A stretch of DNA of 64,000 nt. It comes from Acidimicrobiales bacterium (GTDB taxonomy: Bacteria; Actinomycetota; Acidimicrobiia; Acidimicrobiales; Iamiaceae). The translations under genes were made by a program, and so were the position numbers. The notes beneath the pieces are model-generated. The model was not told the DNA's origin and made no database searches. It worked only from the letters and a program-made list of their open reading frames with translations. Every line of letters starts with the position of its first letter. Within the stretch, counting starts at the first letter, position 1. Positions 1,452 through 57,910 of this stretch are shown in pieces. The DNA lies in the NCBI GenBank assembly GCA_035547835.1, contig DASZTW010000019.1, positions 186,001-250,000 of the forward strand. The letters run 5' to 3'.

Positions 1452-1952
1452 GTGTTGGTCTGGTTCCTCGGCGCGAGCGTCGTCGCCGTCTGGGTGGTGT
1501 TCCGGAGCCCCGCCCTCGACAACCGGCTGGTCGCGGTGGGGGCGGTGCTGCCGGTCCTCGAAGCGCTGACCGGCCGGCCTCGCGTCCTGCACACGTTGCT
1601 CGCGTCGATCGTCGTGCTCGTGGCGGTGATGTTGGCCACGCGTCGGCGGCGGCTGCTGCGACGCCGGTGGTTGGGGCTGCCGATCGGCCTGTTCTTGCAT
1701 CTCGTCCTCGACGGCACGTGGAGCCGCAAGCAGTTGTTCTGGTGGCCGTTGTTCGGCGCGGGGTTCGGTCATCGCCAAGTGCCCGAGCTGACCCACGGCG
1801 CGCTCGGCTGGCTGCTCGAGCTCGCCGGCATCGCGTGCCTGGTCTGGGTGGTCGAGCGGTTCCGCTTGCGTGAGCCGGCGCGGCGGAGCCTGTTCCTGCG
1901 CACCGGTCAGTTCTCCCGCGATCTGGCCAGGGGACCGGAGGCGGGATGCTGA
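1452..1952 (+). CDS. Small integral membrane protein, YdjM/DUF457-like
   Basis: 166 residues beginning with GTG. Four hydrophobic segments are visible: residues 2-17, 24-37, 48-62 and about 111-127. The pattern 'RVLHTLL', then 'GLFLHLVLDGTW', then 'WWPLFG' resembles the His/Asp-containing membrane segments of the YdjM/DUF457 'metal-dependent hydrolase' family, but the match is by eye and the catalytic role is unproven. The last 7 bases overlap the start of the histidine phosphatase gene, so the two are probably translationally coupled. The 143 bases before it contain a doubled 12-base GC-rich unit at about 1419-1441 and no other visible gene. Confidence 0.6.
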   Translation: MLVWFLGASVVAVWVVFRSPALDNRLVAVGAVLPVLEALTGRPRVLHTLLASIVVLVAVMLATRRRRLLRRRWLGLPIGLFLHLVLDGTWSRKQLFWWPLFGAGFGHRQVPELTHGALGWLLELAGIACLVWVVERFRLREPARRSLFLRTGQFSRDLARGPEAGC

Positions 1953-2530
1953 TCCTCGTCCGCCACGGTCGCACCGCGGCGAACGCGCAGCGGCTGCTGC
2001 TCGGCCGACTCGACCCGCCGCTCGACGACGAAGGTCGCCGCCAGGCGGCGCGCCTGCGCGAGGCGGTTGGGTCGTTCGACCACATCCGGTCGAGCCCGTT
2101 GCAGCGGACCCGGGAGACCGCGCAGGCCATCGCGGGTGCCGTCACCGTCGACGTCGATCCGCGGTGGGTCGAGATCGACTACGGCAACTACGACGGGTTG
2201 CCATTGGCCGACGTCCCGCCAGACATGTGGCGCGCGTGGCGCAGCGACCCGTCCTTCACGCCGCCGGGAGGCGAGTCCCTCGCCTCCCTGCAAGCGCGCG
2301 TCGCGGCCGCGTGCGACGACCTTCGGGCCGAGGCCGAAGCCCACGACGTGGTCGTGGTCAGCCACGTGTCGCCGATCAAGGCGGCGGTCGCGTGGGCACT
2401 CGGCGCGGGTCCGGAGCTGGCGTGGAAGCTGTTCCTGCAGCCGGCCTCGATCACCCGGATCGCCGTCGGCCCCACCGGTCCGGTGATCCACTCGTTCAAC
2501 GAGGCGGGCCATCTCCTCGGCGACGCCTGA
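1946..2530 (+). CDS. Histidine phosphatase family protein (phosphoglycerate mutase-like)
   Basis: 194 residues. The N terminus 'LILVRHGRTAANAQ' carries the RHG box whose His is phosphorylated in the histidine phosphatase superfamily. A second His in 'VVVSHVSPIKAAV' (about residues 136-148) matches the other active-site His, and 'SSPLQRTRETA' is the usual substrate-pocket motif. The length suits broad-specificity phosphatases of the CobC/GpmB type rather than true cofactor-dependent glycolytic mutases (about 250 residues). The substrate cannot be predicted. It overlaps the membrane protein gene upstream. Confidence 0.88.
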   Translation: MLILVRHGRTAANAQRLLLGRLDPPLDDEGRRQAARLREAVGSFDHIRSSPLQRTRETAQAIAGAVTVDVDPRWVEIDYGNYDGLPLADVPPDMWRAWRSDPSFTPPGGESLASLQARVAAACDDLRAEAEAHDVVVVSHVSPIKAAVAWALGAGPELAWKLFLQPASITRIAVGPTGPVIHSFNEAGHLLGDA

Positions 2531-2703
2531 ACAGCGAGCCCAGGCCACCAGCCGGAGTCGACGCAGAAGTCTCGGCGCGGGCCTCAACGGCAGGCTTGTT
2601 CGGGCCGATGGTCGAAGTGATGGACGAAAGAACGGTGCGGCGCTGGGGTTAGCCTCGTTTCGTTTGGTGCGGAGCAGGTCCCGGTTCTGCGCCCCGGATC
2701 TCG

Positions 2704-4056
2704 ATGTCGATGCTGCGTACCGTCCAACCACCCAGGTCCCCAACCCGCGTGCTCGCGGTGTGGTGCACCGCCCTCGCCCTGTTCGCGGCGTCGGGGCTGG
2801 TCTCGGCGCCCCGCGCGGGTGGGCAGGCGTTGCCGCCGGCCGCCTCGGGTCCCTCATCGAGCGCCGCCCCGCCCACGTCGACGGCGACGTCGCCCGCACC
2901 CACGACCCCCACGACGCTGCCCCACGGCGACGGCGGCGTCACCACGCAGCCGCCGAAAGGTGGCGAGTCCTCGTCGACGACTTCGACGGTGCCCGCCGGG
3001 CCCACGCTGCCCGATCCGTCGGGCCGGGTCCGGGCGCTGCTCGCCGAGATCGACATCTTGAACGCCCGCGACGCGGTCCCGAAGGCCCAGCAGCACGTCG
3101 TCGACATGCAATCCCGGGCCCAGGATGCCGGCGGTCGCCTGGCCGACGCCCAGTCCCGTCTGGCCCTGGCCGACGACGAGTTGAGCGAGACCCAACAGCG
3201 GCTGGCGACCCTGGCCATCTCGCAGTACGTCGACCCGGGGCAGTCGCAGCTCGAAGCCATCGTCGGCGGCGACAGCAGCATCGGCGAGAAGCGATCGGTG
3301 CTCTTGTCGGTGTCGCTCAAGGCTGAGCGGGCCAAGCTCATGGCCGCCCGCGACGTGCGGGCCGCCCGTGCCCGCGACGTCGCCCGCGCCCGCAAGTCCA
3401 AAAAGGCCGCCGACGGCGACGTGGTCACCGCACAAGAGGGGGTCGTCAAGGCCCACAGCGCGTCGAGCGACGCCGCCGCGGCGCTGCGCGAGGCCGAGGC
3501 GCACCTGCACGACTCGGGGGCGGGCTCGTGGTCGTTGTCGATCGAAGGCGCCAGCGCGGCCAAGCCCGAAGAGATGGCGTACTGGTTCGCGACCCGCGGC
3601 ACGACGCCCGAAGCGCAAGCGCCGCTGTTGCAGCTCACGAAATGGTTCGTGCAGGAAGGCGACGACGAAGGCGTGCGTGGCGACATGGCGTTCGCGCAGT
3701 CGATCGTCGAGACCGGCTCCTTCACGAACCCCGACACCATCGTCCGCAACAACTTCGCCGGCGTCGGTCACTGCGACTCGTGCGCGGCCGGGTTCTCGTT
3801 CGCGACGCCCCAGCTCGGCATCCGCGCCCAGATCCAGCTGCTGAAGTCGTACGCGGAGAAGGACCCGAAGTACCAGCACCCGCTCGTCGACAAGCGCCTG
3901 CGCGGGCCGGCCGGTTGCTGCCGCACCTGGCGGCAGCTCACCCGTGTGTGGGCCACCGCCCCGAACTACGGCCCCGTGATCCTCGACATGTACCGGCAGC
4001 TGCTGGTGTTCGTGGTGCAGCACCGCGGCGGCGTCGTGCCGCCCGGCACCGGCTGA
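2704..4056 (+). CDS. Secreted coiled-coil protein with glucosaminidase-like domain
   Basis: 450 residues. Residues about 15-40 look like a signal peptide ending near 'APRAGGQA'. A Pro/Thr/Ser linker runs to about residue 95, then an Ala/Gln/Arg-rich coiled coil to about 280, like the N terminus of CwlO/RipA-type cell-wall hydrolases. Residues from about 290 ('EMAYWFATRG') to the end contain 'MAFAQSIVETGSF' and 'NNFAGVGHCDSC', resembling the lysozyme-like fold of the glucosaminidase family, with Glu in 'VETGSF' a possible catalytic acid. A role in peptidoglycan remodelling during division is inferred. A second ATG lies two codons downstream. The 173 bases upstream show no other gene. Confidence 0.75.
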   Translation: MSMLRTVQPPRSPTRVLAVWCTALALFAASGLVSAPRAGGQALPPAASGPSSSAAPPTSTATSPAPTTPTTLPHGDGGVTTQPPKGGESSSTTSTVPAGPTLPDPSGRVRALLAEIDILNARDAVPKAQQHVVDMQSRAQDAGGRLADAQSRLALADDELSETQQRLATLAISQYVDPGQSQLEAIVGGDSSIGEKRSVLLSVSLKAERAKLMAARDVRAARARDVARARKSKKAADGDVVTAQEGVVKAHSASSDAAAALREAEAHLHDSGAGSWSLSIEGASAAKPEEMAYWFATRGTTPEAQAPLLQLTKWFVQEGDDEGVRGDMAFAQSIVETGSFTNPDTIVRNNFAGVGHCDSCAAGFSFATPQLGIRAQIQLLKSYAEKDPKYQHPLVDKRLRGPAGCCRTWRQLTRVWATAPNYGPVILDMYRQLLVFVVQHRGGVVPPGTG

Positions 4057-44952: not shown

Positions 44953-45969
44953 TCAGCGGGGTGACGTGACCGGGGCGCCGGTGTTGCGCACGTTCCCCAC
45001 CCACCGCTCGAGCGTCGCGGTGGGGGAAGCCGCAACGTCGCCGAACGATGCGCCTGCCTCGAACTCGTTGTCTGCCACGACGGTGTGGCTTCCGTCGAGG
45101 CGGAGTCGGTAGTCGCCCGTACCGAACCAGTTGCCGATGATCACGTTGTTGTCGACCGCGCCCCAGGTCCCGTCCTCGTAGAGGCTGGAGTTGAGTCCGG
45201 AGTTGTTCGGGCGGTGTGGATCCACGGCGTTGCCGACCACGGTGGCATGGGTACCGGTGGCGTTGGCCGACAGCTGGATCCCGTCGTTGTGGGTCTCGGT
45301 GGCGGGATCGCCGGTGAGGCAGGTCGCGAGACCGTGGATCCAGTTCTGGTACGCGAGCGTGTCGTGTGAGCCCATCCGGAGTCCATCGGGCCAGCCGGAG
45401 ATGTCGCTGTAGGCGATGTAGCCGTCATCGACCTGGGCTCCGGCGTTCATCGCGGAGCCCGCGCAGGTGGTCTTCCCGATCAAGGTGACGTGCTCGATTC
45501 GGAGGTTGCGGGTGCCGGGGGTCTGGTAGATGCCCCAGTAGTCGGAGGTGGTGAGGCGCACGTTGCGGATGGTGACGTCGTCGTTCGCGACGTTGATGCG
45601 TCCACCGGTGATGTCGCGGTTCTCGATCACCTGGCCGTTGGTGGTCGTGGTGATGGGCCCGGCGAGGGCCGTCAGGGTGCGTGCGGGTGCCGCTCCTGTG
45701 TTCGACGCCTCGGGTCGGACGTAGTGCGTGTGCGGGTCGGGCGTGCCCGAGAGTGGTTCCAAGCCGTGCAACGAACGTGGCGAGGAGGGGCCGCGGGAGG
45801 GTGACGACGGCTCCGGGGAGGCCGACGACCGGCCCGGGGAGCTCGGGCGGGTGCTGCACGCGCTGAGGCAGCCGGCCGTCACGGCGACTGCGATGGCCGA
45901 CTCGATGGTGCGTCTCATCCGGTTCCGCCGTGGTGCTGCCGCGACGGTGGGCTTCGATCGTGCGGGCAC
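44953..45969 (-). CDS. Secreted beta-helix lipoprotein
   Basis: 338 residues from GTG directly after the ATP-grasp stop (TGAGTG); an ATG 17 codons in is a good alternative. Lipobox 'LSAC' with Cys38 predicts lipid anchoring. A Ser/Pro linker runs to about 75. From about 110 to the end, repeated short beta strands ('VIENRDITGGRINVANDDVTIRNVRLTTSDYWGIY' blocks, then 'LRIEHVTLIG', 'GYIAYSDISG', 'ATVVGNAVD') indicate a right-handed parallel beta-helix as in polysaccharide lyases and epimerases. A polysaccharide substrate is likely from the locus. Confidence 0.8.
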   Translation of the reverse strand: MPARSKPTVAAAPRRNRMRRTIESAIAVAVTAGCLSACSTRPSSPGRSSASPEPSSPSRGPSSPRSLHGLEPLSGTPDPHTHYVRPEASNTGAAPARTLTALAGPITTTTNGQVIENRDITGGRINVANDDVTIRNVRLTTSDYWGIYQTPGTRNLRIEHVTLIGKTTCAGSAMNAGAQVDDGYIAYSDISGWPDGLRMGSHDTLAYQNWIHGLATCLTGDPATETHNDGIQLSANATGTHATVVGNAVDPHRPNNSGLNSSLYEDGTWGAVDNNVIIGNWFGTGDYRLRLDGSHTVVADNEFEAGASFGDVAASPTATLERWVGNVRNTGAPVTSPR

Positions 45970-47115
45970 TCACCTGCCGCCTGCAGCGCCACGGTCCCCT
46001 ACGGGCGCGACGCTTGCGGGCCGCGCAGCGTCGAGCGACGTCGCCTGGCCGCTGGGCTCGCCACGGCCCCGGTCACGCGGGACGTGCCACTCGCGCAGCG
46101 ATCGCAGAACGGTCGCGGAGTCGTACGGGAAGCGCAGCGGGATGCGCTGACCCAGCAGGTGCTGGCGCAACAGCAGGTCAGGTTCGTTGTAGCCGACCAT
46201 CGCGCGCAGGGAGGTCGTGCCCGAGAAGCGGGGGTTGATCTCGAACACGACGACCTCGTCGTTGACCAGCCGGCACTGCACGTTGATGGGCCCACGCGCG
46301 CCGAGCTCCGCGGCGATGCGCTCACAGGTTGCCGTGACCTCGGGGAACGGGCCGACGTCGCCCTGGCTCACGCCGGAGCTGACGACGAGCTTCGGGCCGA
46401 GGTCCCATCGGTCGGTGAGGTTGGGGACAGCCTGGCGCACGGACAGGGGGTTGGTGAGCTTGCGGTGTACGGCGATGGAGTTGACGAAGCGGCCGTCGAG
46501 GTCGTGCAGGACGCCGACTGTGTACTCGCTCTGTGGGTCGCCGACGTACTCCTGCACCATGATGTCGGCGCCTCGTCTCGCCAGGTACGACAGCAGCACC
46601 TGCAATTCGTCCGAGGACTGGGCGATGTAGCAGTCGCTCGAGCCGCCGCCGTTGCGGGCCGGCTTCACCACTACGGGAAAGCGGTCGATCTGTTCGGCGC
46701 CGTCAGCGGACCAGGTGAGCGGGGTGGCGAAGCCGTGGAGCTCCAGGAACGCCGCGGTTGCGGGCTTGTCCATGCAGGTCGTGATGACCTCGTCGGGCGC
46801 GAGCATGACGACGATCCCGGCGTCGACGAAGCGTTGCCGGTTGGGGCTGAGCACCCGCAGCTCGGCTTCGGAGCCCACGAAGAGCGCCTCCACGTGGTGG
46901 CGCAGGCACGTCGCCAGCAGCTCGTCGAGGTACGTCGGGTCGGATGCGGGCGGGAGGACGAGGCACGTGTCGGCGAGCGCGAACTGCGGGCACGTGGGGT
47001 CGATGTCCGCGCCGATCAACTGGTAGTCACCGCCGAGGAGCAGCGCCTTGAGGATCTGCTCGCCGACCCCGATGCCGCCGATGGCGGTGATCATGACGAT
47101 GGGGCGGCGTCTCAC
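45970..47115 (-). CDS. ATP-grasp protein (carbamoyl-phosphate-synthase-like)
   Basis: 381 residues from GTG, GTGA overlap with the phosphoesterase gene. The N-terminal Rossmann part is 'VMITAIGGIGVGEQILKALL', followed by 'LFVGSEAELRVLSPNR'. The ATP-grasp core shows 'FPVVVKPARNGGGSSDCYIA', 'IMVQEYVGDPQSEYTVGVL' and metal-site 'VVFEINPRFSGTTSLRAMVGYNEPDLLL'. Members of this group ligate a carboxylate to an amine using ATP; several are found in polysaccharide loci. The Arg/Gly C-terminal tail looks disordered. The substrate is unknown. Confidence 0.87.
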   Translation of the reverse strand: MRRRPIVMITAIGGIGVGEQILKALLLGGDYQLIGADIDPTCPQFALADTCLVLPPASDPTYLDELLATCLRHHVEALFVGSEAELRVLSPNRQRFVDAGIVVMLAPDEVITTCMDKPATAAFLELHGFATPLTWSADGAEQIDRFPVVVKPARNGGGSSDCYIAQSSDELQVLLSYLARRGADIMVQEYVGDPQSEYTVGVLHDLDGRFVNSIAVHRKLTNPLSVRQAVPNLTDRWDLGPKLVVSSGVSQGDVGPFPEVTATCERIAAELGARGPINVQCRLVNDEVVVFEINPRFSGTTSLRAMVGYNEPDLLLRQHLLGQRIPLRFPYDSATVLRSLREWHVPRDRGRGEPSGQATSLDAARPASVAPVGDRGAAGGR

Positions 47116-47738
47116 TGCTCAAAGCCTCCTGTCGAAACGGCGACGGGTGCCGATCGGTCGATGTCGAAGCGGATGATCTCCGCGGCGGCGGTGTCGGTGT
47201 CGACGATCGCCGCCGCGCCGCGTCTGTCGGCGTCGCGCGGGAGCGCGCAGCTGCCCACGTTGACGAAGGTGGTGTGCCCTGCCCGGCGGACGAAGGGGCG
47301 GTGCGTGTGGCCCATGCACACCACCGACCACGGACAGGGCACGAACGGCGCGAGCGACGAGTCCGGATACACGTACTCGTACGTGAAGTCCCGCGGGCTG
47401 CCATGGACGAGGAGGGCACGGCCACCGATGATCCGAGCCTGGGGCCAGGCCGCGATCCGGGCGAGGCGCTCCTCGCCGAGGTCGGCCCTCGTCTGCGCCA
47501 GGTGGTAGCGGTCGTCGGGCGCGCCGGGCTTGGTGGCCAGCACCATGGCCTCGTGGTTGCCGGCGATGGCGGGGATGCACAGCTCGTCGATCGCGTCGAC
47601 CACCGCGGCGCCGGGCGTGTAGCCCACCGAGTCGCCGAGGAAGTAGATGCGGTCGACGCCGCGCCCTTCGACCGCCCTCACGCCGGTCTCGAACGCGCCC
47701 CGGTCGCCGTGGGCGTCGGACAACAGCCCGATCTTCAC
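47112..47738 (-). CDS. Metallophosphoesterase
   Basis: 208 residues from GTG, GTGA overlap with the sugar transferase stop. 'GLLSDAHGD', 'YFLGDSVGY', 'IAGNHEAMV', 'LLVHGSPRD' and 'CMGHTHRPF' are the five metal-ligand blocks of calcineurin-like phosphoesterases (YfcE/MJ0936 type). It should hydrolyse a phosphate ester; the nature of the substrate, perhaps a polyprenyl or sugar phosphate in this locus, is inference. Confidence 0.9.
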   Translation of the reverse strand: MKIGLLSDAHGDRGAFETGVRAVEGRGVDRIYFLGDSVGYTPGAAVVDAIDELCIPAIAGNHEAMVLATKPGAPDDRYHLAQTRADLGEERLARIAAWPQARIIGGRALLVHGSPRDFTYEYVYPDSSLAPFVPCPWSVVCMGHTHRPFVRRAGHTTFVNVGSCALPRDADRRGAAAIVDTDTAAAEIIRFDIDRSAPVAVSTGGFEQ

Positions 47739-49195
47739 GATGCCACCTCGATCTGCACGCTCCCACCGCGGTGATGCTGGCTGGGCCCTCGCCGCGACAT
47801 CGCGCCCTTCCAGGCATGGCGGATCACGCTCGGCACTGTGGCCAGCAAGATGGCGAGGTCGAGCGTGGGGGTCCAGTTGTCGGCGTAGAAGAGGTCGAGC
47901 TGTCGGTAGGGGTGGAAGGCGGGGTTGTCCCGGGCCTCGATCTGCCACAACCCGGTGATGCCGGGTCGGACACGGGCGCGGCCCCGGAGCTCCTCGTCGA
48001 ACGTGGCCACTTCCTCGGGCAGGGCAGGCCGCGGGCCCACGAGGCTCATGTGGCCGGCCAGCACGTTGAACAGCTGTGGGAGCTCGTCGATGCTGGTGCG
48101 TCGCAGGATCCGGCCAATGGTCGTCACCCGAGGGTCGTCGCGGAGCTTGAACAGCGGCCCGTCGTCGCGCTCGTTCGCGGCGCGCAGCTGGGCCTTGCGT
48201 GAATCTGCATCCGTCGTCATGGTGCGGAACTTGAGGACCGTGAACAGGTGGCCGTCGCGTCCCACTCGTTGTTGCCGGAACAACGCTGGACCCCGATCGC
48301 CGAGTCGGATCGCGGCCGCAGCAGCCAGGAGCACCGGCGCGGCGAGAATCAGCGCGGTGGCGCCGATCGCGACGTCCACCGTCCGCTTGGCGACGAGTTG
48401 GATCGGGCCGTGGTGGGGCGGCTCGATGTGCAACAGCGGCTCGTGCGCGACGGGAACGGGATGCACCCGGCGATGGTCCAGGTTGGCGATCCCACCGAAG
48501 ATCTGGATGCTCAACCCAGCGCCGAACGCGGCCCGTACCAGTCGCGCCAACTGGGCGCGGGGGAGCGCCCCTTGTTCGATGAGCAGCCCGCACGCGCCGC
48601 GCGACCGTGCGATCTTGACCGCGTCCGCCGTCGATCCGAGGTCGTCCAGGGTCAGCGGAGGCTCGTGGGGTGTGCCGAAGTCGGCGACGAAGCCGACCAG
48701 CCGGTAGCCGGTGTCGGGGCGGGTCGCCAGGTGCTGGTACAGGTCGTGGGCGGCTCGGCTGTTGCCGACCAGCAGCATCGGCTGCAAGAACCGGCCTTGC
48801 CGGCGCCGACGTGCCAGCCATCGGTCGAACGCGGAGTGCGTGACCGCCAGGGCGACGAGCGTCCACGTCGCGCCCGCCACGACACGGCTCAACGACACGG
48901 TGACGCGCAGGGGTGTGACCAGGACGAGCACGGTGACCGCGGGGATCGGGACGCCCCGGACCAGGCGAGCCAGCGCAAGGGCGCGCAGTCCCGATGCGGC
49001 CCTCGCGTACGCGCCCGCCATCGCCAGGCCCGTCACGCAGGCGAGCGAGGCGGCAGCGGCGAGGAGGAGGCCAGGTCGAGGATCGAGCTGGCCCTGGCCC
49101 GGTCCCGCGACCATCAACACGGCCACCCAGGTCGCGCCCACCACGAACAGATCGGCGATCGCCTGCGACAAGTGCAATGGCGACGACGTCCTCAT
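47735..49195 (-). CDS. Polyprenyl-phosphate sugar transferase (WbaP/CpsE-like)
   Basis: 486 residues. About four N-terminal helices, a CoA-binding-like domain ('PMLLVGNSRAAHDLYQHLA'), then a fifth helix at 'KRTVDVAIGATALILAAPVLLA' and the Bac_transf catalytic domain: 'RQQRVGRDGHLFTVLKFRTM', 'RRTSIDELPQLFNVLAGHMSLVGPRP' and 'RPGITGLWQIEARD'. The enzyme starts polysaccharide repeat units by moving a sugar-1-phosphate to undecaprenyl phosphate. First gene of the minus-strand operon, divergent from the large secreted protein across 83 bases that must hold both promoters. Confidence 0.93.
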   Translation of the reverse strand: MRTSSPLHLSQAIADLFVVGATWVAVLMVAGPGQGQLDPRPGLLLAAAASLACVTGLAMAGAYARAASGLRALALARLVRGVPIPAVTVLVLVTPLRVTVSLSRVVAGATWTLVALAVTHSAFDRWLARRRRQGRFLQPMLLVGNSRAAHDLYQHLATRPDTGYRLVGFVADFGTPHEPPLTLDDLGSTADAVKIARSRGACGLLIEQGALPRAQLARLVRAAFGAGLSIQIFGGIANLDHRRVHPVPVAHEPLLHIEPPHHGPIQLVAKRTVDVAIGATALILAAPVLLAAAAAIRLGDRGPALFRQQRVGRDGHLFTVLKFRTMTTDADSRKAQLRAANERDDGPLFKLRDDPRVTTIGRILRRTSIDELPQLFNVLAGHMSLVGPRPALPEEVATFDEELRGRARVRPGITGLWQIEARDNPAFHPYRQLDLFYADNWTPTLDLAILLATVPSVIRHAWKGAMSRRGPSQHHRGGSVQIEVAS

Positions 49196-49278
49196 GTTGG
49201 GAGCAGAGCCGCGCCGTCGGCGGCCTGATACGCGTTGTTAGCCGGTATCAAGAGCCGCGGTGGCGGCTCGTACCGGCA

Positions 49279-52200
49279 ATGACCTGGAACCGGATCGCAA
49301 CCGGCGTGCCGCGGCGAGCCTTCGTCATCGGCGCAGTGGTCGCCCTGATGTGGACGGTGACGGCGACCGCCCCGGGCGCCTCGATGGCGGCGGCGGCGCC
49401 GTCGACTCGGGGCGCAGGTGCCGTGCCATCAGCGACGAGCGCAAGTGCCGACGCAACGTGTCCGTGCAGCCTCTTCGCGCCGACCGACACGCCGGTGACG
49501 CCGGATGCCGGTGACGCGAGCGCCGTCGAGGTCGGCGTGCGCTTCACCCCGACCACGGCCGGCTATGTGACCGGGGTCCGCTTCTACAAGTCAGCGGCGA
49601 ACACCGGGACGCACATCGGCAACTTGTGGACCACGTCGGGTGCCCTGCTGGCGACCGTCGTGTTCACGAGCGAGACGGCATCGGGCTGGCAGCAGGCGAC
49701 GTTCTCCCAGCCGGTGCCCGTCGCCGCCGGCGGCACGTACATCGCGTCGTACCACACCGACGCCGGGCACTACGCCGCTGACTTCGGCTACTTCGCCACG
49801 CCGGTCAGCAACCCGCCGCTGGTCGCCCCAGCCGATGGCAGCGACGGGAACGGCGTGTACAAGACCGGGGCGACGGGCTTCCCGTCGAGCTCGTATCGCT
49901 CGGCCAACTACTGGGTCGATCTCACCTTCGTCACCCAGGCGACCGACACGACGCCGCCCACCGTCGTGGCGCAGCAACCGGCCTCGAACGCGACCGCGGT
50001 GCCCAGCGCAAGCACGCCGTCGGCGACCTTCAGCGAGCCGGTGCAACCCTCGACGGTGAACTTCACCCTGAAAGGCACGAGCGGTGCGACGGTGCCGTCA
50101 TCGGTCGCGTACGACGCCGCCTCGTCGACGGTGACGCTGACGCCGACGTCCTCGCTGGCGGACGGCACGTACACCGCGACGGTCGCTGGTGTGAAGGACC
50201 TCGCTGGCAATGCCATGGCGGCGCCCTACAGCTGGTCGTTCAGCGTGGGGACGCGCGCCTGCCCGTGCTCGATCTGGCCCGCCACCGCCACCCCCGCGAA
50301 CCCGGCGGTGACCGACTCGACCGCCGTCGAGCTCGGCGTGCAGTTCTCGACCGACACGCCCGGCTACATCACCGGCGTGCGGTTCTACAAGGCCGACGGC
50401 AACACCGGGACCCACCTCGGTCACGTCTGGACGGCATCCGGCACGCTGCTCGGCACCGCGACGTTCACGAACGAGTCGGCGAGCGGGTGGCAGACCGCAA
50501 CCTTCACGAACCCGGTAGCGGTGGCGCCCGGCAACGTCTACGTCGCCTCCTACTTCGCCCCCAACGGCCACTACGAAGCGGACGGCGGCGCGCTGCTCAA
50601 CGGTGTCGACTCGCCGCCGCTCCATGCCATGCCGGACCGCAACGGCACCAAGAACGGCGTGTACCACATCGGTTCGAGCGCGTTCCCGGCCGACTCGTGG
50701 GCCTCGATCAACTACTGGGTCGACGTGGTCTTCGCGACCTCCGCCGCCGACACGACTCCACCGACGGTTGCCTCGGTCAAGCCCCCGTCGGGCGCGAGCG
50801 GGGTGCCGGTGAACGCACCGATCAGCGCGACGTTCAGCGAGCCGGTCCAACCGTCGAGCGTCGTGATCCGGCTGCAGGACAGCGTTGGTCATCAGCTGAC
50901 CGGCACGACGACTTATGACGCCGACACGCTCACGTCGACGTTCCAGCCCTCGGCGGCGCTCGATCGCTCGGCCACGTACACGGCGACGGTGCAGGCTGCC
51001 AAGGACACCGCGGGCAACGCGCTCGCTGCGCCCTACGTGTGGTCGTTCACGCCGAGCGGCACCGCATCGTTGTGGGGCACCCCTACACCGCAGGTCGTCG
51101 ACGCCGTCAACAGCGGCCCGCTCGAGCTCGGCATGCGCTTCACGTCCTCGACCAACGGCTACGTCACCGGTCTCCGCTTCTACAAGAGCGCGGCCAACAC
51201 GGGCACCCACCTCGCTGATCTGTGGAGCGTTGGCGGCAAGCTCCTCGGCACCGCCACGTTCACGAACGAGACCGCATCGGGGTGGCAACAGGTGCTGTTC
51301 CCCCAGCCGGTACCGATCAGCGCCGGGGGCACGTACGTGGCCTCGTACCACACCGACTCGGGGCACTACTCCGCCGATCCGGGGTACTTCGCCGACCACG
51401 GGGCCGACAACGGTCCGCTCCACGCGTTCCAGGACGGCGACGGCGGCCCGAACGGCGTCTTCGCCGACGGTGCCAGCGCGTTCCCGACGCTGACGTACGG
51501 GTCGGCGAACTACTGGGTCGACGTGGTCTTCACCACCACCGCCACCGACACCACGCCGCCGACCGTGCTCACGCACGCGCCCCTGTCAGGTGACCCGGTG
51601 CCACCGGAGTCGCTGATCACCGCCGGGTTCAGCGAACCGGTGAGGTCGTCGTCGATCTCGATGACGGTCACCGACGCGAGCGGACATGCCGTGGCCGGCT
51701 CCACGTCGTACGACGCCCCGTCGCGGGTCGCGACCTTCTCCCCGTCGTCGGCGCTGTCGGCCGGGACCACCTACACGGTGAAAGTCAGCGGTGCTGGCGA
51801 CCTGGCCGGGAACGCCATGGCTACGCCGGCGACCTGGTCGTTCTCGACCCAGACAGCGGTGCCCCTGTCCGGCACCGGCGGGCCGGTGCTCGTGATCACC
51901 GATCCGAGCAACGGCTTCAGCGACTACTACGGCGAGATCCTCCGCACCGAGGGGCTCAACGAGTTCGCCACCAAGCCCATCGCCTCGGTCACTGCGTCGA
52001 CACTCGCCAACTATGACCTGGTGATCCTCACCCCGCGGACGGTCACGAACGCGCAGAAGTCGATGTTGTCGTCGTGGGTGCAAGGCGGCGGGAACCTGAT
52101 CGCGATGCGGCCGTCGACCTCGCTCGCCTCGCTGTTCGGCCTCCGCTCGTCGGGTACCACGTTGGCCGAGGGCTACCTGAAGGTGCAGACCGCCTCGGGC

Positions 52201-53643
52201 CCGGGCGTCGGCATCACCGACCAGACCATCCAGTTCCACGGCACCGCCGACCGCTACACGCTCAACGGCGCCACCAGCGTCGCCTCCCTCTACCGCGACG
52301 CCACCACCGCGACCACGTCACCCGCCGTGGCCATGCGGACGTACGGCACCGGGCACGTCGCCATGTTCGCCTTCGACCTCGCCCGCTCGATCGTCGAGAC
52401 CCGGCAAGGGAACATCGCGTGGGCGGGGCAGCACCGCATGGGCACGTCGCCGATCCGTTCGTACGACCTCTTCTACGGCCCCTCGGCGAGCGACCCGGAG
52501 ACGAACTGGCTCGACTTGTCGAAGGTGGCGATCCCGCAGGCCGACGAACAACAGCGGCTGTTGGCGAACCTCATGATCACGATGGACGCGGCCAAACGGC
52601 CGCTCCCTCGGTTCAACTACTTCCCCAAGGGCTACAAGGCCGTCGTGGTCATGACCGGCGACGACCACGCGCACGGCGGCACCGTCGGCCGCTTCGACCA
52701 GGACCTGGCCGAGAGCGCCCCCGGTTGCTCGGTCGCCCAGTGGACCTGCCTCCGGTCGACGTCGTACATCTTCCCGGGCACACCGATCAGCGACGCGCAG
52801 GCACAGCTGTATGAGGCTGCCGGCTTCGACCTCGACGCCCACGTCAACACCGACTGCAACGACTTCACCGAGTCGTCGCTCGACTCGATCGTGACCGAGG
52901 AGCTCGCGGCGCTCGCCGCCCAACTGCCGAGCATCCCCGCGCCGTCGAACAACCGCACGCACTGCGTCGTGTGGAGCGACTGGGCGAGCCAGCCGAAGGT
53001 CGAGCTCGCCCATGGCGTGCGGCTCGACGCCAACTACTACTGGTGGCCCGTGCAGGCCGCGGCCACCCACCCCGGTCTCTTCACGGGCTCGGGCATGCCG
53101 ATGCGCTTCGCCGACGACGACGGCTCGCTGATCGACGTGTACCAGCTCGCCACCCAGGTCACCGACGAGTCGGGCCAGCCCGAGCCGAGCACGATCAACT
53201 TGCTGCTCGACGACGCCCTCGGCCCGCTCGGCTACTACGGCGCCTTCACGATCAACGCCCACACCGACAGCGGCGACTCGCCGGTGGCGGACGCGGTGGT
53301 GGCCAGCGCTCAGGCCCGAGGGGTGCCCGTCGTCTCGGCGAAGCAGATGCTCACCTGGCTCGACGCCAAGGCCAAGTCGTCGTTCGGCAACTCGAGCTGG
53401 AGCAACGGGCATCTGACCTTCACCGTGTCGGCCGATCCTGGCGCCACCGGCCTGCAGGGGATGTTGCCGGCGACTTCGCTGGCCGCGCCGTTCTCCGCGA
53501 CGTCGCCCGGAGCGATCACGTCGCTGACGGTGAACGGCACCGCCGTTCCGTTCACGCTCCAGACGATCAAGGGCATCCAGTACGCGGTGTTCAACGCGGC
53601 GGGCGGGACGTACACAGCCACCTACGCACGGAGTGCACCGTGA
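49279..53643 (+). CDS. Large secreted protein: DUF4082/Ig-like repeats plus deacetylase-like domain
   Basis: 1454 residues. A signal peptide covers about 1-40. DUF4082-like modules lie at about 62-216, 328-486 and 597-752, each with 'GVRFYK', 'NTGTH', 'ASGWQ' and 'NYWVD' landmarks. Each is followed by an Ig-like module (about 224-325, 492-592, 758-859) starting 'DTTPPTV' with 'ATFSEPV' and 'DLAGNAMA'. Residues 866-1068 resemble a ThuA/GATase-like fold ('VLVITDPSNGFSDYYGEIL', 'WVQGGGNLIAMRP'). From 1110 'VVVMTGDDHAHGG' and 'DAHVNTDC' recall the metal site of polysaccharide deacetylases. A beta domain ends it. It is encoded first in the operon; cell-wall or polysaccharide binding is inferred. 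Confidence 0.82.
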   Translation: MTWNRIATGVPRRAFVIGAVVALMWTVTATAPGASMAAAAPSTRGAGAVPSATSASADATCPCSLFAPTDTPVTPDAGDASAVEVGVRFTPTTAGYVTGVRFYKSAANTGTHIGNLWTTSGALLATVVFTSETASGWQQATFSQPVPVAAGGTYIASYHTDAGHYAADFGYFATPVSNPPLVAPADGSDGNGVYKTGATGFPSSSYRSANYWVDLTFVTQATDTTPPTVVAQQPASNATAVPSASTPSATFSEPVQPSTVNFTLKGTSGATVPSSVAYDAASSTVTLTPTSSLADGTYTATVAGVKDLAGNAMAAPYSWSFSVGTRACPCSIWPATATPANPAVTDSTAVELGVQFSTDTPGYITGVRFYKADGNTGTHLGHVWTASGTLLGTATFTNESASGWQTATFTNPVAVAPGNVYVASYFAPNGHYEADGGALLNGVDSPPLHAMPDRNGTKNGVYHIGSSAFPADSWASINYWVDVVFATSAADTTPPTVASVKPPSGASGVPVNAPISATFSEPVQPSSVVIRLQDSVGHQLTGTTTYDADTLTSTFQPSAALDRSATYTATVQAAKDTAGNALAAPYVWSFTPSGTASLWGTPTPQVVDAVNSGPLELGMRFTSSTNGYVTGLRFYKSAANTGTHLADLWSVGGKLLGTATFTNETASGWQQVLFPQPVPISAGGTYVASYHTDSGHYSADPGYFADHGADNGPLHAFQDGDGGPNGVFADGASAFPTLTYGSANYWVDVVFTTTATDTTPPTVLTHAPLSGDPVPPESLITAGFSEPVRSSSISMTVTDASGHAVAGSTSYDAPSRVATFSPSSALSAGTTYTVKVSGAGDLAGNAMATPATWSFSTQTAVPLSGTGGPVLVITDPSNGFSDYYGEILRTEGLNEFATKPIASVTASTLANYDLVILTPRTVTNAQKSMLSSWVQGGGNLIAMRPSTSLASLFGLRSSGTTLAEGYLKVQTASGPGVGITDQTIQFHGTADRYTLNGATSVASLYRDATTATTSPAVAMRTYGTGHVAMFAFDLARSIVETRQGNIAWAGQHRMGTSPIRSYDLFYGPSASDPETNWLDLSKVAIPQADEQQRLLANLMITMDAAKRPLPRFNYFPKGYKAVVVMTGDDHAHGGTVGRFDQDLAESAPGCSVAQWTCLRSTSYIFPGTPISDAQAQLYEAAGFDLDAHVNTDCNDFTESSLDSIVTEELAALAAQLPSIPAPSNNRTHCVVWSDWASQPKVELAHGVRLDANYYWWPVQAAATHPGLFTGSGMPMRFADDDGSLIDVYQLATQVTDESGQPEPSTINLLLDDALGPLGYYGAFTINAHTDSGDSPVADAVVASAQARGVPVVSAKQMLTWLDAKAKSSFGNSSWSNGHLTFTVSADPGATGLQGMLPATSLAAPFSATSPGAITSLTVNGTAVPFTLQTIKGIQYAVFNAAGGTYTATYARSAP

Positions 53644-54704
53644 ACACCACTGGAGTAGCGGTGATCGGCGCGGGCTACTGGGGACCGAACTTGGTCCGCA
53701 ACCTGCGTGGTCATCCCGACGTCGACCTGCGCTGGGTGTGCGACCTCGACCCGGAGCGCACTGGCCGCGTGGTCGGCCGGTACGCCCTGACCCGCACCAC
53801 CGACCGGCTCGACGACGTCCTTTCCGACCCGGCGGTCGACGCGGTGGTGATCGCCACGCCGGCGGCCACGCACGCGTCGCTCGCCAGAGCCTGCCTCGAC
53901 AGCGGGCGACACGTGCTCGTCGAGAAGCCGATCGCGTGTGACTCGGCCGACGCAGACGACCTGATCGCCAAGGCGTCGGCGGCCGGGTTGGTGCTCATGT
54001 GCGACCACACGTACTGCTACTCGCCCGTGGTCCGGCACCTGCGTGAGCTCATCCACTCGGACGTGGCGGGGGAGGTCCAGTACCTCGACTCCGTGCGCAT
54101 CAACCTCGGCCTCGTCCAGACCGACGTCGACGTGTTCTGGGACCTCGCGCCGCACGACCTGTCGATCATCGACTTCATCGTCGAGCCCGAGCTCCGCCCG
54201 ATCGCCGTCGCCGCGCAAGGTTCCGACCCGGTCGGAGCGGGGCGAACCTGTGTCGGCTACCTCACGTTGTTCCTCGGCAACGGTGCCTTGGCCCACGTAC
54301 ACGTCAACTGGCTGAGCCCGACGAAGGTCCGCACGATGATCATCGGCGGGAGCCGCCAGATGATGGTCTGGGACGACCTCAACCCGTCGCAGCGGCTCAG
54401 CGTCTTCGACCGCGGTGTCGCCATGGCCGAACCCATCGATGACGAACGTCGCCGCGAAGCCTTGGTGTCGTACCGGCTCGGCGACATGCGCGCGCCGGCC
54501 CTCGGCGACGGCGAAGCATTGCAGGGCGTCGTCGCCGAGTTCGTGGGCTCGGTGCGGTCTCACCGTCGCCCGTTGACCGACGGTGAGAGCGGCGCGCGCG
54601 TGCTTCGGATCCTCGAAGCGATCCCGGCGAGCCTCGAGCGCGGCGGTGCCGCGGTGCCGATCGCCCCCGCCCCGATGCCGGCACCGGTCGGGGTGGCGCG
54701 ATGA
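53640..54704 (+). CDS. Gfo/Idh/MocA oxidoreductase (WlbA-like)
   Basis: 354 residues from GTG, GTGA overlap. 'VAVIGAGYWGPNLVRNL' is the NAD-binding loop; 'HVLVEKPIACD' carries the conserved Lys, and 'DLAPHDLSIIDFI' the catalytic His region. It resembles UDP-GlcNAc-type 3-dehydrogenases (WlbA) that act before a DegT aminotransferase and a WlbB acetyltransferase; both are encoded in this locus. The exact sugar is inferred. Confidence 0.88.
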   Translation: MNTTGVAVIGAGYWGPNLVRNLRGHPDVDLRWVCDLDPERTGRVVGRYALTRTTDRLDDVLSDPAVDAVVIATPAATHASLARACLDSGRHVLVEKPIACDSADADDLIAKASAAGLVLMCDHTYCYSPVVRHLRELIHSDVAGEVQYLDSVRINLGLVQTDVDVFWDLAPHDLSIIDFIVEPELRPIAVAAQGSDPVGAGRTCVGYLTLFLGNGALAHVHVNWLSPTKVRTMIIGGSRQMMVWDDLNPSQRLSVFDRGVAMAEPIDDERRREALVSYRLGDMRAPALGDGEALQGVVAEFVGSVRSHRRPLTDGESGARVLRILEAIPASLERGGAAVPIAPAPMPAPVGVAR

Positions 54705-55747
54705 CCCGGGGGACGATGACGGTGGTCGTGCCGTGCCACGACTACGGCACGTACCTCGGCCAGTGCGTCAACAGCGTCATCGACCGCCCGGGCGTCGACC
54801 TCGAGGTGCTCGTCATCGACGACGCGTCGACCGACGACACGCCCACGATCGGGGCCGCCCTTGCGGCGACCGACTCCCGGATCACGTTCACCCGGCACGA
54901 CGAGCGACTCGGTCACGTCGCCACCTACAACGAAGGGCTGGCTCGCGCCACGGGCGACTACGCCCTGGTGCTGTCGGCCGACGACGCCGTCGTGCCGGGA
55001 GCTCTCGGTCGTGCCGCTCGCTTTCTCGACGACGAGCCCACGGTCGGGCTCGTGTACGGACGCACGGTGTTCTTCGAGCATGGCGCGCTCCCGCTTGCTC
55101 GCCACGGCGGCGGCCACCGACGGGTCCGCGCCGGGAATGACTGGATCGCGGCGCGCTGCCGTGCCGGCACGAACTGCATCAGCTCACCCGAGGCTGTCGT
55201 ACGGACCAGCCTCCTCCGTCGGATCGGCGCGTACCGCGACGAGTTGCCGATGACCGGCGACCTCGAGCTGTGGCTTCGTTGTGCGGCCCACGCAGACGTG
55301 GGCTACCTGCGGGGCACCGATCAGGCCTACTACCGGCGCCACGCCAACAGCATGTTCCGCGCTCGCCTGGCCGATCCGCTGATCGACCTGTGCCACCGTC
55401 GCGCCGCGTTCGAGCTCTTCTTCACTTACCAGCGGCTGTTCGTCGTCGACGCGGACGTGCTCGAGGACGACTACCGCCGGGCCCTCGCCCGCGAGGCGCT
55501 GCACAAAGCGTCACGGGCATACGACCACGACCGGGTCTCGGACCGGACCGTGGCCCGTCTCGTGGAGTTCGCGGAGTCCACTTACGAAGCAGCTCAGTCG
55601 CTTCCGGAAGCAGCCGGCCTGCGCCTCCGCCGTCGCCTCGGGCCGCGGGTCAGCCGCTGGATGCCCCCGCTCGCCGGCGTGGCTGCAGCGGGTCGCGTGC
55701 GCGACGTCGTCACCACTTGGCGCTGGTCGAGGACGGGTGACCTGTGA
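54701..55747 (+). CDS. Family 2 glycosyltransferase
   Basis: 348 residues, ATGA overlap. 'MTVVVPCHDYGTYLGQCVNSVI' and 'VLVIDDASTDDTP' are the GT-A nucleotide site; 'YALVLSADDAVVPGAL' is the DxD-like metal motif; 'MTGDLELWLRCAAHADVGYL' carries the acceptor-side ED-type region. It transfers a sugar from a nucleotide donor to the growing lipid-linked unit at the membrane face. The C-terminal 120 residues are helical. Confidence 0.92.
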   Translation: MTRGTMTVVVPCHDYGTYLGQCVNSVIDRPGVDLEVLVIDDASTDDTPTIGAALAATDSRITFTRHDERLGHVATYNEGLARATGDYALVLSADDAVVPGALGRAARFLDDEPTVGLVYGRTVFFEHGALPLARHGGGHRRVRAGNDWIAARCRAGTNCISSPEAVVRTSLLRRIGAYRDELPMTGDLELWLRCAAHADVGYLRGTDQAYYRRHANSMFRARLADPLIDLCHRRAAFELFFTYQRLFVVDADVLEDDYRRALAREALHKASRAYDHDRVSDRTVARLVEFAESTYEAAQSLPEAAGLRLRRRLGPRVSRWMPPLAGVAAAGRVRDVVTTWRWSRTGDL

Positions 55748-56781
55748 TGGAGGAGATCCAGGACTTCACCGCGGCCGGGCTGGCCGGTCGCCGCGTCCTC
55801 GTCACCGGCGGCGCCGGGTTCATCGGCTCGAGTCTGTCCCGGGTCCTGCTCGCCAGCGGGGCCGAGGTCACCGTGTTCGACAACGAGGCGACCGGCCGCT
55901 TCGAGAACCTCCTTGGCTGCGCGGGGGAGGTGGGCGCAGCTCCGGTGCTGGTGACCGGCGACGTGCGCGACGGGCGGGGCCTCTCCCACGCCATGGCTGG
56001 CATCGACATCGTGTTCCACCTCGCGTGTCTCGGCGTTCGCCACTCGTTGCTCTTCCCACGCGAGAACCATGAGGTCAACGCAGGTGGGACGCTCAGGGTC
56101 CTCGAGGCGGCGCGTGCCCGGAACATCGGCCGCGTCGTGCATGTGTCGTCGTCAGAGGTGTACGGGACGGCCCAGTGGGCGCCGATGACCGAAGCCCACC
56201 CGACCAGCCCGCACACCGTGTACGGCGCCAGCAAGCTCGCGGGGGAGTGCTACGCACGGGCCTACCACCGTTGCCATGACCTCGACGTCGTGGTCGTGCG
56301 CCCCTTCAACAGCTACGGACCCCGCTCGCACCACGAAGGCGACAGCGGCGAGGTGATCCCCCGGTTCCTGGTGCGGGCGATGAGCGGCGACCCGCTCGTC
56401 GTGTACGGCGACGGCAACCAGACCCGAGACTTCACGCATGTGTACGACAGCGCGCTGACGATCGCCCGCGCCGGAGTGACCCCCGGACTCGGCGGCGAGG
56501 TCGTGAACGTCGGGTCGGGGGTGGAGACGAGCGTCAACGAGCTGCTCGACGCGGTCGCCTCGGCGACCGGGCAGCGGGTCACGGTGATGTACTCCGACGC
56601 GCGACCCGGCGATGTGTCACGCCTGGTGGCCGACTCGACGCTGGCCCGCGAGCTGCTGGATCACCGCCCCCGCATCGCGCTGCGGGATGGGCTGGCCGAC
56701 CTGGCCGGGCGGTTGGCCGGGCTGGGGGGCCCTGAGGTCGCGGCGCTCGCTGCGGCCGTCCCCGATCGAAGTTGGGTGTGA
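55744..56781 (+). CDS. NAD-dependent epimerase/dehydratase
   Basis: 345 residues; GTG at 55744 overlaps the upstream stop, and ATG at 55747 is equally possible. 'VLVTGGAGFIGSSLSRVLL' is the extended-SDR loop; Ser in 'VHVSSSEVYG' and 'YGASKLAGE' (Tyr-x3-Lys) are catalytic; 'VVRPFNSYGPRSH' and 'GNQTRDFTHVYD' bind the nucleotide sugar. UDP-sugar 4-epimerase or decarboxylase activity is likely; which one cannot be told. Confidence 0.92.
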   Translation: MMEEIQDFTAAGLAGRRVLVTGGAGFIGSSLSRVLLASGAEVTVFDNEATGRFENLLGCAGEVGAAPVLVTGDVRDGRGLSHAMAGIDIVFHLACLGVRHSLLFPRENHEVNAGGTLRVLEAARARNIGRVVHVSSSEVYGTAQWAPMTEAHPTSPHTVYGASKLAGECYARAYHRCHDLDVVVVRPFNSYGPRSHHEGDSGEVIPRFLVRAMSGDPLVVYGDGNQTRDFTHVYDSALTIARAGVTPGLGGEVVNVGSGVETSVNELLDAVASATGQRVTVMYSDARPGDVSRLVADSTLARELLDHRPRIALRDGLADLAGRLAGLGGPEVAALAAAVPDRSWV

Positions 56782-56782
56782 C

Positions 56783-57910
56783 GTGATCGAGGTCGCGAAG
56801 CCCTGGTTCAGCGAGGCAGAGCAGATGGCCGCGGCCGACGCGATCGCTTCAGGTTGGGTGGCGCAAGGGCCGCGCGTCGAGGCGTTTGAGCGGGCGGTCG
56901 CCGACGTCGTGGGAGCTGAGCACGGCGTTGCGCTGTCATCGGCCACCGCCGGCCTCCACCTCGCCCTGGCCGTGGCCGGGGTCGGCCAGGGCGACGAGGT
57001 GGTGGTCCCGTCGCTGTCGTTCATCGCGTCGGCGAACGCGCCGACGTACGTCGGGGCCACTCCGGTCTTCGCCGATGTCGATGCCGCGACCCAGAACCTC
57101 ACCCCCGCGTCGGTGGCTGCCGCGCTCACACCGCGCACCCGGGCGGTGCTGCTGGTGCACCAAGGGGGGACTCCCGCCGACGTCGCCGGGATGCACGCGA
57201 TGTGCGATCCGTTGGGGGTCACAGTGGTCGAAGACGCGGCGTGTGCGATCGGCTCCACGTACGACGGCCGGCCGATCGGGTCGCACTCCGACCTGGTCGT
57301 GTTCTCCTTCCACGCCCGCAAGATCCTCACCACCGGCGAAGGCGGCATGGTGATGGCTCGCCGGTCAGGCGACGCCACGCGGTTGCGCCGACTTCGTGAT
57401 CACGGCGTGGACGTGAACGCCTCCGAGCGCCACCGCGCCCGCTCCACGTCGCCTGAGCACTACGTGGAGCGGGGGTTCAACTACCGCATGACCGACATCC
57501 AGGCAGCGGTCGGTCTCGTCCAGCTCGGACGGCTCGATGAGCTCGTGAGCCGGCGACGGGAGCTGGCCGCCCACTACCGCCGCGCGCTCGGCGACCTCCC
57601 CGGCATCACCTGCGTCGCGGACCCGCCGTGGGGCCGTGCGAACTTCCAGTCGTTTTGGATCACGCTTCCGGAGGGGTGCGCAGGCCGGCGCGACGAACTG
57701 CTCCGGCAGCTCCTCGTCGAGGGCATCTCGGCCCGCCGAGGCTTCATGGCCGCCCACCTCGAGCCCGTCCACGCCGGGGCGGCGGCTCTTGCGCTGCCGG
57801 TCACCGAGGAACTGACCAAGCGGTCACTGGTCCTGCCGCTCCACCATGGCCTCACCCTCGACGACCTCGATCGCGTCGCGGCGGTCGTGCGGTCCGCCTG
57901 GCCGTCGTGA
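56783..57910 (+). CDS. DegT/DnrJ/EryC1 sugar aminotransferase
   Basis: 375 residues from GTG, one base after the preceding stop. 'GWVAQGPRVEAFERAVADVV', 'ALSSATAGLHLALAVAGVG', 'VVEDAACAIGSTYDGRPIG' and the PLP lysine in 'FSFHARKILTTGEGGMV' mark the family; 'RGFNYRMTDIQAAVGLVQLGRLD' is the dimer-contact segment. It adds an amino group to a keto-sugar nucleotide. A second family member is encoded at the right edge of the window. Confidence 0.94.
   Translation: MIEVAKPWFSEAEQMAAADAIASGWVAQGPRVEAFERAVADVVGAEHGVALSSATAGLHLALAVAGVGQGDEVVVPSLSFIASANAPTYVGATPVFADVDAATQNLTPASVAAALTPRTRAVLLVHQGGTPADVAGMHAMCDPLGVTVVEDAACAIGSTYDGRPIGSHSDLVVFSFHARKILTTGEGGMVMARRSGDATRLRRLRDHGVDVNASERHRARSTSPEHYVERGFNYRMTDIQAAVGLVQLGRLDELVSRRRELAAHYRRALGDLPGITCVADPPWGRANFQSFWITLPEGCAGRRDELLRQLLVEGISARRGFMAAHLEPVHAGAAALALPVTEELTKRSLVLPLHHGLTLDDLDRVAAVVRSAWPS

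Follow-up and report, generated by a model that had tools for sequence, protein, structure and literature searches.

The window analysed here is a stretch of 64,000 nucleotides from an Acidimicrobiales bacterium (assembly GCA_035547835.1, contig DASZTW010000019.1, positions 186,001 to 250,000 of the forward strand). On its minus strand lies a string of three genes that encode, in this order, an initiating sugar transferase, a metallophosphoesterase (MPE) and an ATP-grasp ligase (Table 1). As the original prediction had said, the three genes overlap by GTGA: both junctions, transferase/MPE and MPE/ATP-grasp, have this four-base overlap of start and stop. Amide-linked non-sugar groups shape the recognition of surface polysaccharides, and we know of few enzymes that add them. 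We describe here the MPE/ATP-grasp pair as a putative unit for this kind of decoration.

The ATP-grasp protein is a member of NF009402 (PRK12767.1-1, 'carbamoyl phosphate synthase-like') and scores 353.5 bits against a curated cut-off of 218. Seven positions are invariant in 49 aligned sequences, among them K117, K151, Q188, E197, E292 and R296, and N294 is kept in at least 90% of the rows; the window protein has N294, K117, K151, E292 and R296. We take the conserved residues to be those that bind ATP and magnesium. The best match of the predicted model (pLDDT 90.9) in the PDB is 2pn1, titled carbamoylphosphate synthase large subunit (Z 31.0, root-mean-square deviation (rmsd) 2.4, 298 residues aligned), followed by PylC (4ffr; Z 26.4, rmsd 3.1, 285 aligned), with which biotin carboxylases tie. 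PylC, the 3-methylornithine-lysine ligase, is an amine-carboxylate ligase and shares with the window protein, besides the fold, the N-terminal domain model PF21360. It belongs to another pathway, however, and on the PylC equivalog model the window protein reaches 17.7 bits, where the cut-off is 248.3. Searches of the open-licence literature brought up no characterised member of PRK12767.1-1. A plain carbamoyl-phosphate synthase function was set aside: nothing but the name given to the family by NCBI suggests it, and the protein consists of one ATP-grasp of 381 amino acids (aa).

The MPE matches Metallophos_2 (PF12850) with an E value of 1.8e-20 and 74 bits, above the gathering score of 27, and on the YfcE subfamily model TIGR00040 it scores 44.1 bits against a cut-off of 56.25. 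Its metal-site residues D8, H10, D36, N61, H112 and H146, which presumably have catalytic roles, are invariant in 36 aligned sequences. The first histidine of the GHTH motif (H144), kept in the window, is an asparagine in several other MPEs (L018, L020, L022, L030 and L033), an exchange that may alter metal binding. The top PDB matches of the predicted model (pLDDT 92.5) are 2gju, 3rqz and 1nnw with Z scores of 23.4-23.5, then SapH with 21.3. SapH/Spr1479 and the 3rqz-type enzymes thus share the MPE fold (Z 21-23.5) and differ from the window protein in sequence, with 23-28% identity over the aligned part. While 3rqz is merely titled 'metallophosphoesterase', SapH is titled diadenosine tetraphosphate (Ap4A) hydrolase and phosphodiesterase.

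The pairing of these two proteins is real and widespread. Genome contigs were scanned with an alignment of two ATP-grasps, the MPE being unused in the search, and in all 33 loci found in this way an MPE like that of the window lies directly upstream of the ATP-grasp. Both query proteins do have an MPE beside them, and because the two peptide patterns came from two MPE-bearing sequences the 33 loci represent a near clade. According to their record titles they stem from Pseudomonadota, Actinomycetota, Chloroflexi, Verrucomicrobia, Omnitrophota, Lachnospiraceae and others. The best plasmid match of the ATP-grasp (49% identity) lies on a deltaproteobacterial plasmid, where its gene overlaps the adjacent one, the best match of the MPE (43%); this ATP-grasp and that of the window are the two in the alignment. 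The pair is also co-inherited as a unit: over 23 non-redundant loci the distances among ATP-grasps and among MPEs correlate with a rho of 0.70, and none of 2000 permutations gave a value as high. For two other frequent neighbours, an AsnB-like amidotransferase and a methyltransferase, the correlation with the ATP-grasp distances is 0.35 (17 loci, 75 of 2000 permutations) and 0.28 (20 loci, 34 of 2000). Locus L043, with its broken ATP-grasp open reading frame (ORF) of 171 aa, was excluded from the distance test. Among the papers listed by searches of the open-licence literature, none describes a pairing of an MPE with this ATP-grasp in its title or abstract opening.

A class-level search of 296 genomes gave an ATP-grasp match at E<=1e-20 in four, the window's own included, the other three at 30-35% identity, and among the 396 genomes of a phylum-level search the window's own was the only one to pass the family cut-off. 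In the ATP-grasp tree the window protein falls into a supported set of ten, the other nine of which are, by record title, Accumulibacter (3), Rubrivivax (2), Polaromonas, SAR86, Kiloniella and an unclassified proteobacterium. This company suggests that the gene was acquired from Pseudomonadota. Viral contigs gave no matches when scanned with P0001, and four loci (L048-L051) when scanned with the pair alignment; as none of the four has an MPE match, a phage link was set aside. On one of these contigs, classed as viral in IMG/VR, an ATP-grasp 39% identical to that of the window (L048, 4989-6065) has an epimerase-like neighbour.

A second sample was drawn with the NCBI ATP-grasp model alone (E<=1e-40) and read over ~9 kb to either side as far as the contig reached. 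It comprises 18 loci and excludes the window, the centre genome G654 (L069) and a repeat of L072. Fourteen of the 18 have a phosphatase within two genes of the ATP-grasp, and these phosphatases belong to unrelated folds, with MPE in ten loci, HAD in three and PHP in one. All 14 phosphatase-profile matches in the sample lie within this distance, that of L097 by coordinates; its MPE had been missed by our home-made ORF chooser and was recovered by the profile. A third sample of 22 loci (L112-L133), part of a longer match list, covers the order of the genome of L041, whose record is titled Arcobacter, hence Campylobacterales. Here the phosphatase is the next gene in 19 of 22 loci (5 MPE, 3 PHP and 11 HAD). 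Another ATP-grasp family in the same search had a phosphatase neighbour in none of seven loci (L134-L140). Those seven loci share a conserved cassette, which besides the ATP-grasp encodes a small protein (77-79 aa, PqqD-like by eye) and one of ~445 aa.

HAD and PHP proteins are mostly monoester phosphatases. Most of the HAD and PHP labels among the 22 loci come from home-built profiles alone, made from three HAD sequences (L011, L012, L081) and two PHP sequences (L068, L014) that were first seen beside ATP-grasps. For these five seed loci the profiles are circular, the seeds having been taken from beside ATP-grasps; Pfam names the seeds independently. Pfam confirmed every phosphatase on which it was run, the seeds among them, namely five HAD (that of L118 included), two PHP and three MPE. 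To place the phosphatase states on a tree built from 73 ATP-grasps takes 10 changes, where shuffled states take 31.8 on average, and the slot is thus kept while unrelated occupants swap. The tree is of a 'quick' type with long branches flagged; L043, L050, L051, L126 and L132 were excluded, and L118 was labelled HAD although its HAD is not the next gene. Between ATP-grasp and HAD, L118 carries two small genes (1710-3099) that resemble a HEPN/nucleotidyltransferase toxin-antitoxin pair by eye.

The neighbouring genes point to the sugar that might be decorated; the general roles of PseC, LegB and AsnB-type proteins are taken here as background. All 33 near loci have a DegT aminotransferase within 10 kb of the pair, as do 15 of the 18 others within 9 kb, whereas UDP-glucose-type dehydrogenases are found over the same distances in 2 of 33 and 1 of 18. 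With DegT frequent and uronate-making dehydrogenases scarce, the acceptor is more probably an amino sugar than a uronic acid. The window has a LegB-like short-chain dehydrogenase/reductase (SDR) and a PseC-like DegT protein ~8-10 kb from the pair, and farther on in the locus a second DegT-like gene. The uronic acid that the original prediction had named as a possible acceptor therefore loses ground on these counts, while a UDP-glucose/GDP-mannose dehydrogenase at window-equivalent positions 69562-70998 (L052), ~22 kb from the pair, speaks for it. The AsnB-like amidotransferases and the methyltransferase are each present at 30 of the 33 near loci.

We propose a two-step unit for amide decoration within a surface-polysaccharide pathway, in which the ATP-grasp would ligate a phosphorylated group and the MPE would then dephosphorylate it. 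To this reading we assign a probability of roughly 0.6; the evidence is gene order, family membership, intact catalytic residues, the recurrence of ligase and phosphatase together, and the replacement of the phosphatase by unrelated folds. In the first step the ATP-grasp enzyme would activate a carboxylate with ATP and couple it with an amine; in this way a sugar would receive a small phosphorylated building block. The likeliest acceptor would be the amino group of a nucleotide-linked amino sugar provided by the DegT aminotransferase. As donor, a hydroxy- or amino acid in phosphorylated form is likeliest, for instance 3-phosphoglycerate or phosphoserine. In the second step the MPE would remove the phosphate ester and leave, for example, a glyceramido or seryl group. 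From what is known of its family, the overlapping transferase would load the finished sugar-1-phosphate on undecaprenyl phosphate. It matches Bac_transf (PF02397) with an E value of 1.4e-60 and passes the cut-off of TIGR03025 (EPS_sugtrans) with 352.6 against 295.55 bits; the genome has four Bac_transf matches, of which it is one. The general idea of the original prediction was an ATP-grasp that forms an amide and a phosphatase that acts on the phosphorylated intermediate, in connection with a sugar-carrier pathway. The comparative evidence agrees with this idea, and such chemistry has been described for the capsule of Campylobacter jejuni.

In C. jejuni, Cj1438C is described to use ATP for coupling glucuronic acid with serinol phosphate or ethanolamine phosphate; the amide product then loses its phosphate through the HAD phosphatase Cj1435 (PMC11800397, PMC13276843). 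What Cj1438C/Cj1435, and likewise HS19.11C/HS19.09, have in common with the proposed unit is an ATP-dependent amide with a phosphorylated small molecule, a dedicated phosphatase and a place in surface-polysaccharide synthesis. The counterpart of the dedicated phosphatase is the MPE that overlaps the window ATP-grasp by GTGA. In contrast, the C. jejuni ligase is described as a TupA-like ATP-grasp fused to a glycosyltransferase (PMC11800379), its phosphatase is a HAD protein, and its acceptor is a glucuronic acid already in the growing chain. The window ligase matches no TupA model, none being among the seven Pfam families at E<=0.01, and it is not of the Cj1438C type. Since Cj1438C is TupA-like, it is to be seen as an analogue of the window ligase and not as a member of its family. 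In the order of L041's genome, no strong match to Cj1438C-like proteins, among the matches listed, lay in an ORF of ~780 aa.

A close parallel is found in Neisseria. PglB2 is described as an ATP-grasp/phosphoglycosyltransferase responsible for the glyceramido sugar (PMC11130364, PMC6959607). In one meningococcal strain type it is followed by a protein of unknown function (PMC3338715), and commensal Neisseria are described to carry pglB2 and pglB2b, with a gene inserted before pglC (PMC7643975). The statement in the original prediction that no described pathway has this set of genes does not hold against PglB2 with its extra neighbour. Three genomes, the top matches among 280 of the order of L024's genome (Trinickia), have at L147-L149 the gene order transferase, PRK12767.1-4-like ATP-grasp, HAD, formyltransferase-like, DegT and dehydratase. 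This order matches the described commensal pgl loci, and L147-L149 would accordingly be loci of the neisserial type. The PglB2/PglB2b (GATDH) pathway has a phosphoglycosyltransferase and an ATP-grasp that are fused or adjacent; in the window a sugar transferase and an ATP-grasp stand in one overlapping gene string, separated by the MPE, and its LegB-like SDR and PseC-like DegT protein could correspond to the UDP-4-amino sugar supply. The neisserial system differs in its ATP-grasp, which is of the sibling subfamily PRK12767.1-4 and not 1-1, in having a HAD protein and not an MPE, and in the fusion of transferase and ATP-grasp in meningococci. On NF009405, the subfamily of the L147 ATP-grasp, the window protein scores 141.7 bits against a cut-off of 390, and L147 itself, with 386.8, is just under it. 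The proposed unit would share the logic of Cj1438C/Cj1435 and PglB2 and differ from them in its ligase subfamily and in a phosphatase that can be exchanged.

Of the two routes, we prefer the one in which a phosphorylated acid acylates an amino sugar to the one in which a uronic acid is amidated. In the latter case the ATP-grasp would amidate a hexuronic acid with a phosphorylated amine, for which serinol phosphate, ethanolamine phosphate and phosphoserine are candidates, and the MPE would dephosphorylate the amide as Cj1435 does. The exact chemistry is described in C. jejuni, the dehydrogenase farther along the window locus could supply the acid, and AsnB-type amidotransferases are regular companions of the pair; however, the counts of DegT and dehydrogenase genes point the other way, and the characterised ligase is described as TupA-like, unlike the window protein. 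We therefore regard this route as possible, though rather unlikely. An ATP-grasp that works as a kinase or makes an acyl phosphate of the carbamoyl-phosphate kind for some other product seems improbable to us. The MPE would then act elsewhere, for instance as a nucleoside-diphosphate-sugar pyrophosphatase or Ap4A hydrolase, and both the family name and the title of 2pn1, the nearest structure, would agree with such an ATP-grasp, as would the cleavage of Ap4A by SapH-like MPEs that the SapH structure title implies. Against it stand the co-inheritance of the pair and the filling of the same slot by HAD and PHP proteins, for which monoesters are the usual substrates. That the three-gene overlap merely reflects chance packing of unrelated polysaccharide genes we consider highly improbable. 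Overlapping ORFs are common in dense GC-rich genomes and the transferase is never beside the pair in the 33 near loci, but the MPE-ATP-grasp linkage in 33 of 33 loci already refutes chance for these two genes. Moreover, at L116/L150 transferase, MPE, ATP-grasp and epimerase are encoded by overlapping ORFs in the window's own order.

Several observations weigh against the proposed amide-decoration unit. None of the 33 near loci has the transferase adjoining the pair, and a single one has it within 10 kb; its coupling in the window is thus unusual for the clade and may be local. In the other two samples it adjoins the ATP-grasp or its MPE in 4 of 18 (L085, L086, L088, L101) and in 4 of 22 loci (L116, L124, L125, L127). 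The relatives of the MPE include the Ap4A hydrolase SapH, and the monoesterase role thus leans on the swapping of partners. Four of the 18 loci (L084, L094, L095, L101) have no recognised phosphatase within 9 kb, and in Campylobacterales L122 and L126 have none within 1.5 kb, the HAD of L118 lying farther off. The SDR and the DegT protein of the window both score below their model cut-offs, the latter with 306.1 bits on the PseC model (cut-off 423.5). Finally, the window lacks the AsnB-like and methyltransferase partners kept in most near loci, for which sub-cut-off or weak matches were the only ones elsewhere in its genome.

In a broader sense, PRK12767 ATP-grasps might be the ligases of a widespread and so far unrecognised system of amide decoration by ligation and dephosphorylation, with a phosphatase slot that can be filled by MPE, HAD or PHP; we see about an even chance for this generalisation. 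If it is true, the gene beside meningococcal pglB2 would encode the phosphatase, which would act on a phosphoglyceryl precursor and so release the glyceramido group. The origin of this group would become directly testable, with phosphoglycerate as donor and the HAD protein as second enzyme, and the PRK12767 'carbamoyl phosphate synthase-like' proteins would gain a testable function. Gene order would also reveal members of such a ligase family by their phosphatase partner and so allow amide-linked groups to be predicted from genomes.

Table 1. Genes of the window discussed in the text, with positions in the window
Feature	Position	Strand	Basis
Initiating sugar-1-phosphate transferase (polyprenyl-phosphate glycosylphosphotransferase), 486 aa	47735..49195	-	PF02397, TIGR03025
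Calcineurin-like metallophosphoesterase, 208 aa, GTG start in the transferase stop	47112..47738	-	PF12850
PRK12767-type (carbamoyl-phosphate-synthase-like / PylC-like) ATP-grasp ligase, 381 aa, GTG start in the MPE stop	45970..47115	-	NF009402
Lipoprotein of beta-helix-like sequence, its gene probably last in the transcript, not conserved as a partner	44953..45969	-	sequence reading
Gfo/Idh/MocA oxidoreductase, same polysaccharide locus	53640..54704	+	PF01408, E 7.8e-24
SDR of the 4,6-dehydratase/epimerase type	55744..56781	+	top NCBIfam TIGR04180 (LegB), 213.4 bits, under cut-off 475
DegT/DnrJ/EryC1 sugar aminotransferase, PseC/LegC-like	56612..57910 (true start probably ~56780)	+	PF01041, E 3.2e-108

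Among the other genes of the locus, the SDR is a candidate for an earlier step toward the amino sugar. The top NCBIfam match of the Gfo/Idh/MocA oxidoreductase is UDP-GlcNAc 3-dehydrogenase, with 128.7 bits and under the cut-off of 450. Divergent from the transferase gene string, on the plus strand at 49228-53643, lies a gene whose large product looks secreted and contains three DUF4082 and three Big_5 Ig-like domains; the C-terminal part of this protein has no named domain.

The beta-helix lipoprotein had been placed without a gap behind the ATP-grasp gene. This holds for the GTG start at 45969, the base directly after the ATP-grasp stop; the lipoprotein signal, ending in LSAC, fits better to an ATG at 45918, which leaves 51 bases between the two genes. 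The protein has no match in Pfam or NCBIfam and no paralogue in the window's genome. Weak tblastn matches, with 26-28% identity among the matches listed, are rhizobial plasmid genes mostly annotated as right-handed beta-helix proteins. Since it has no paralogue and is in no cluster common to at least three loci, it was set aside as a part of the unit. The four-gene neighbourhood that the original prediction had wanted searched for thus recurs in part. Its restriction to the window, named there as a refutation, fails for the pair and, through L116, for transferase, MPE and ATP-grasp; it stands for the set of four with the beta-helix gene, which is in no other examined locus.

Two further arrangements around related ATP-grasps were seen. 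In a recurrent cassette (L090-L092, L097, L098 and L100) a WbqC-family protein, a methyltransferase and the ATP-grasp are followed by an MPE downstream. Of the 90 plasmid records that the window ATP-grasp matched, 74 are Sinorhizobium; on pSymB of Sinorhizobium meliloti (L014, 8378-10107) a gene for a PHP-domain protein overlaps that of an ATP-grasp related to the window's, and the two adjoin an oxidoreductase and the cysD/nodQ/cysQ sulfation genes.

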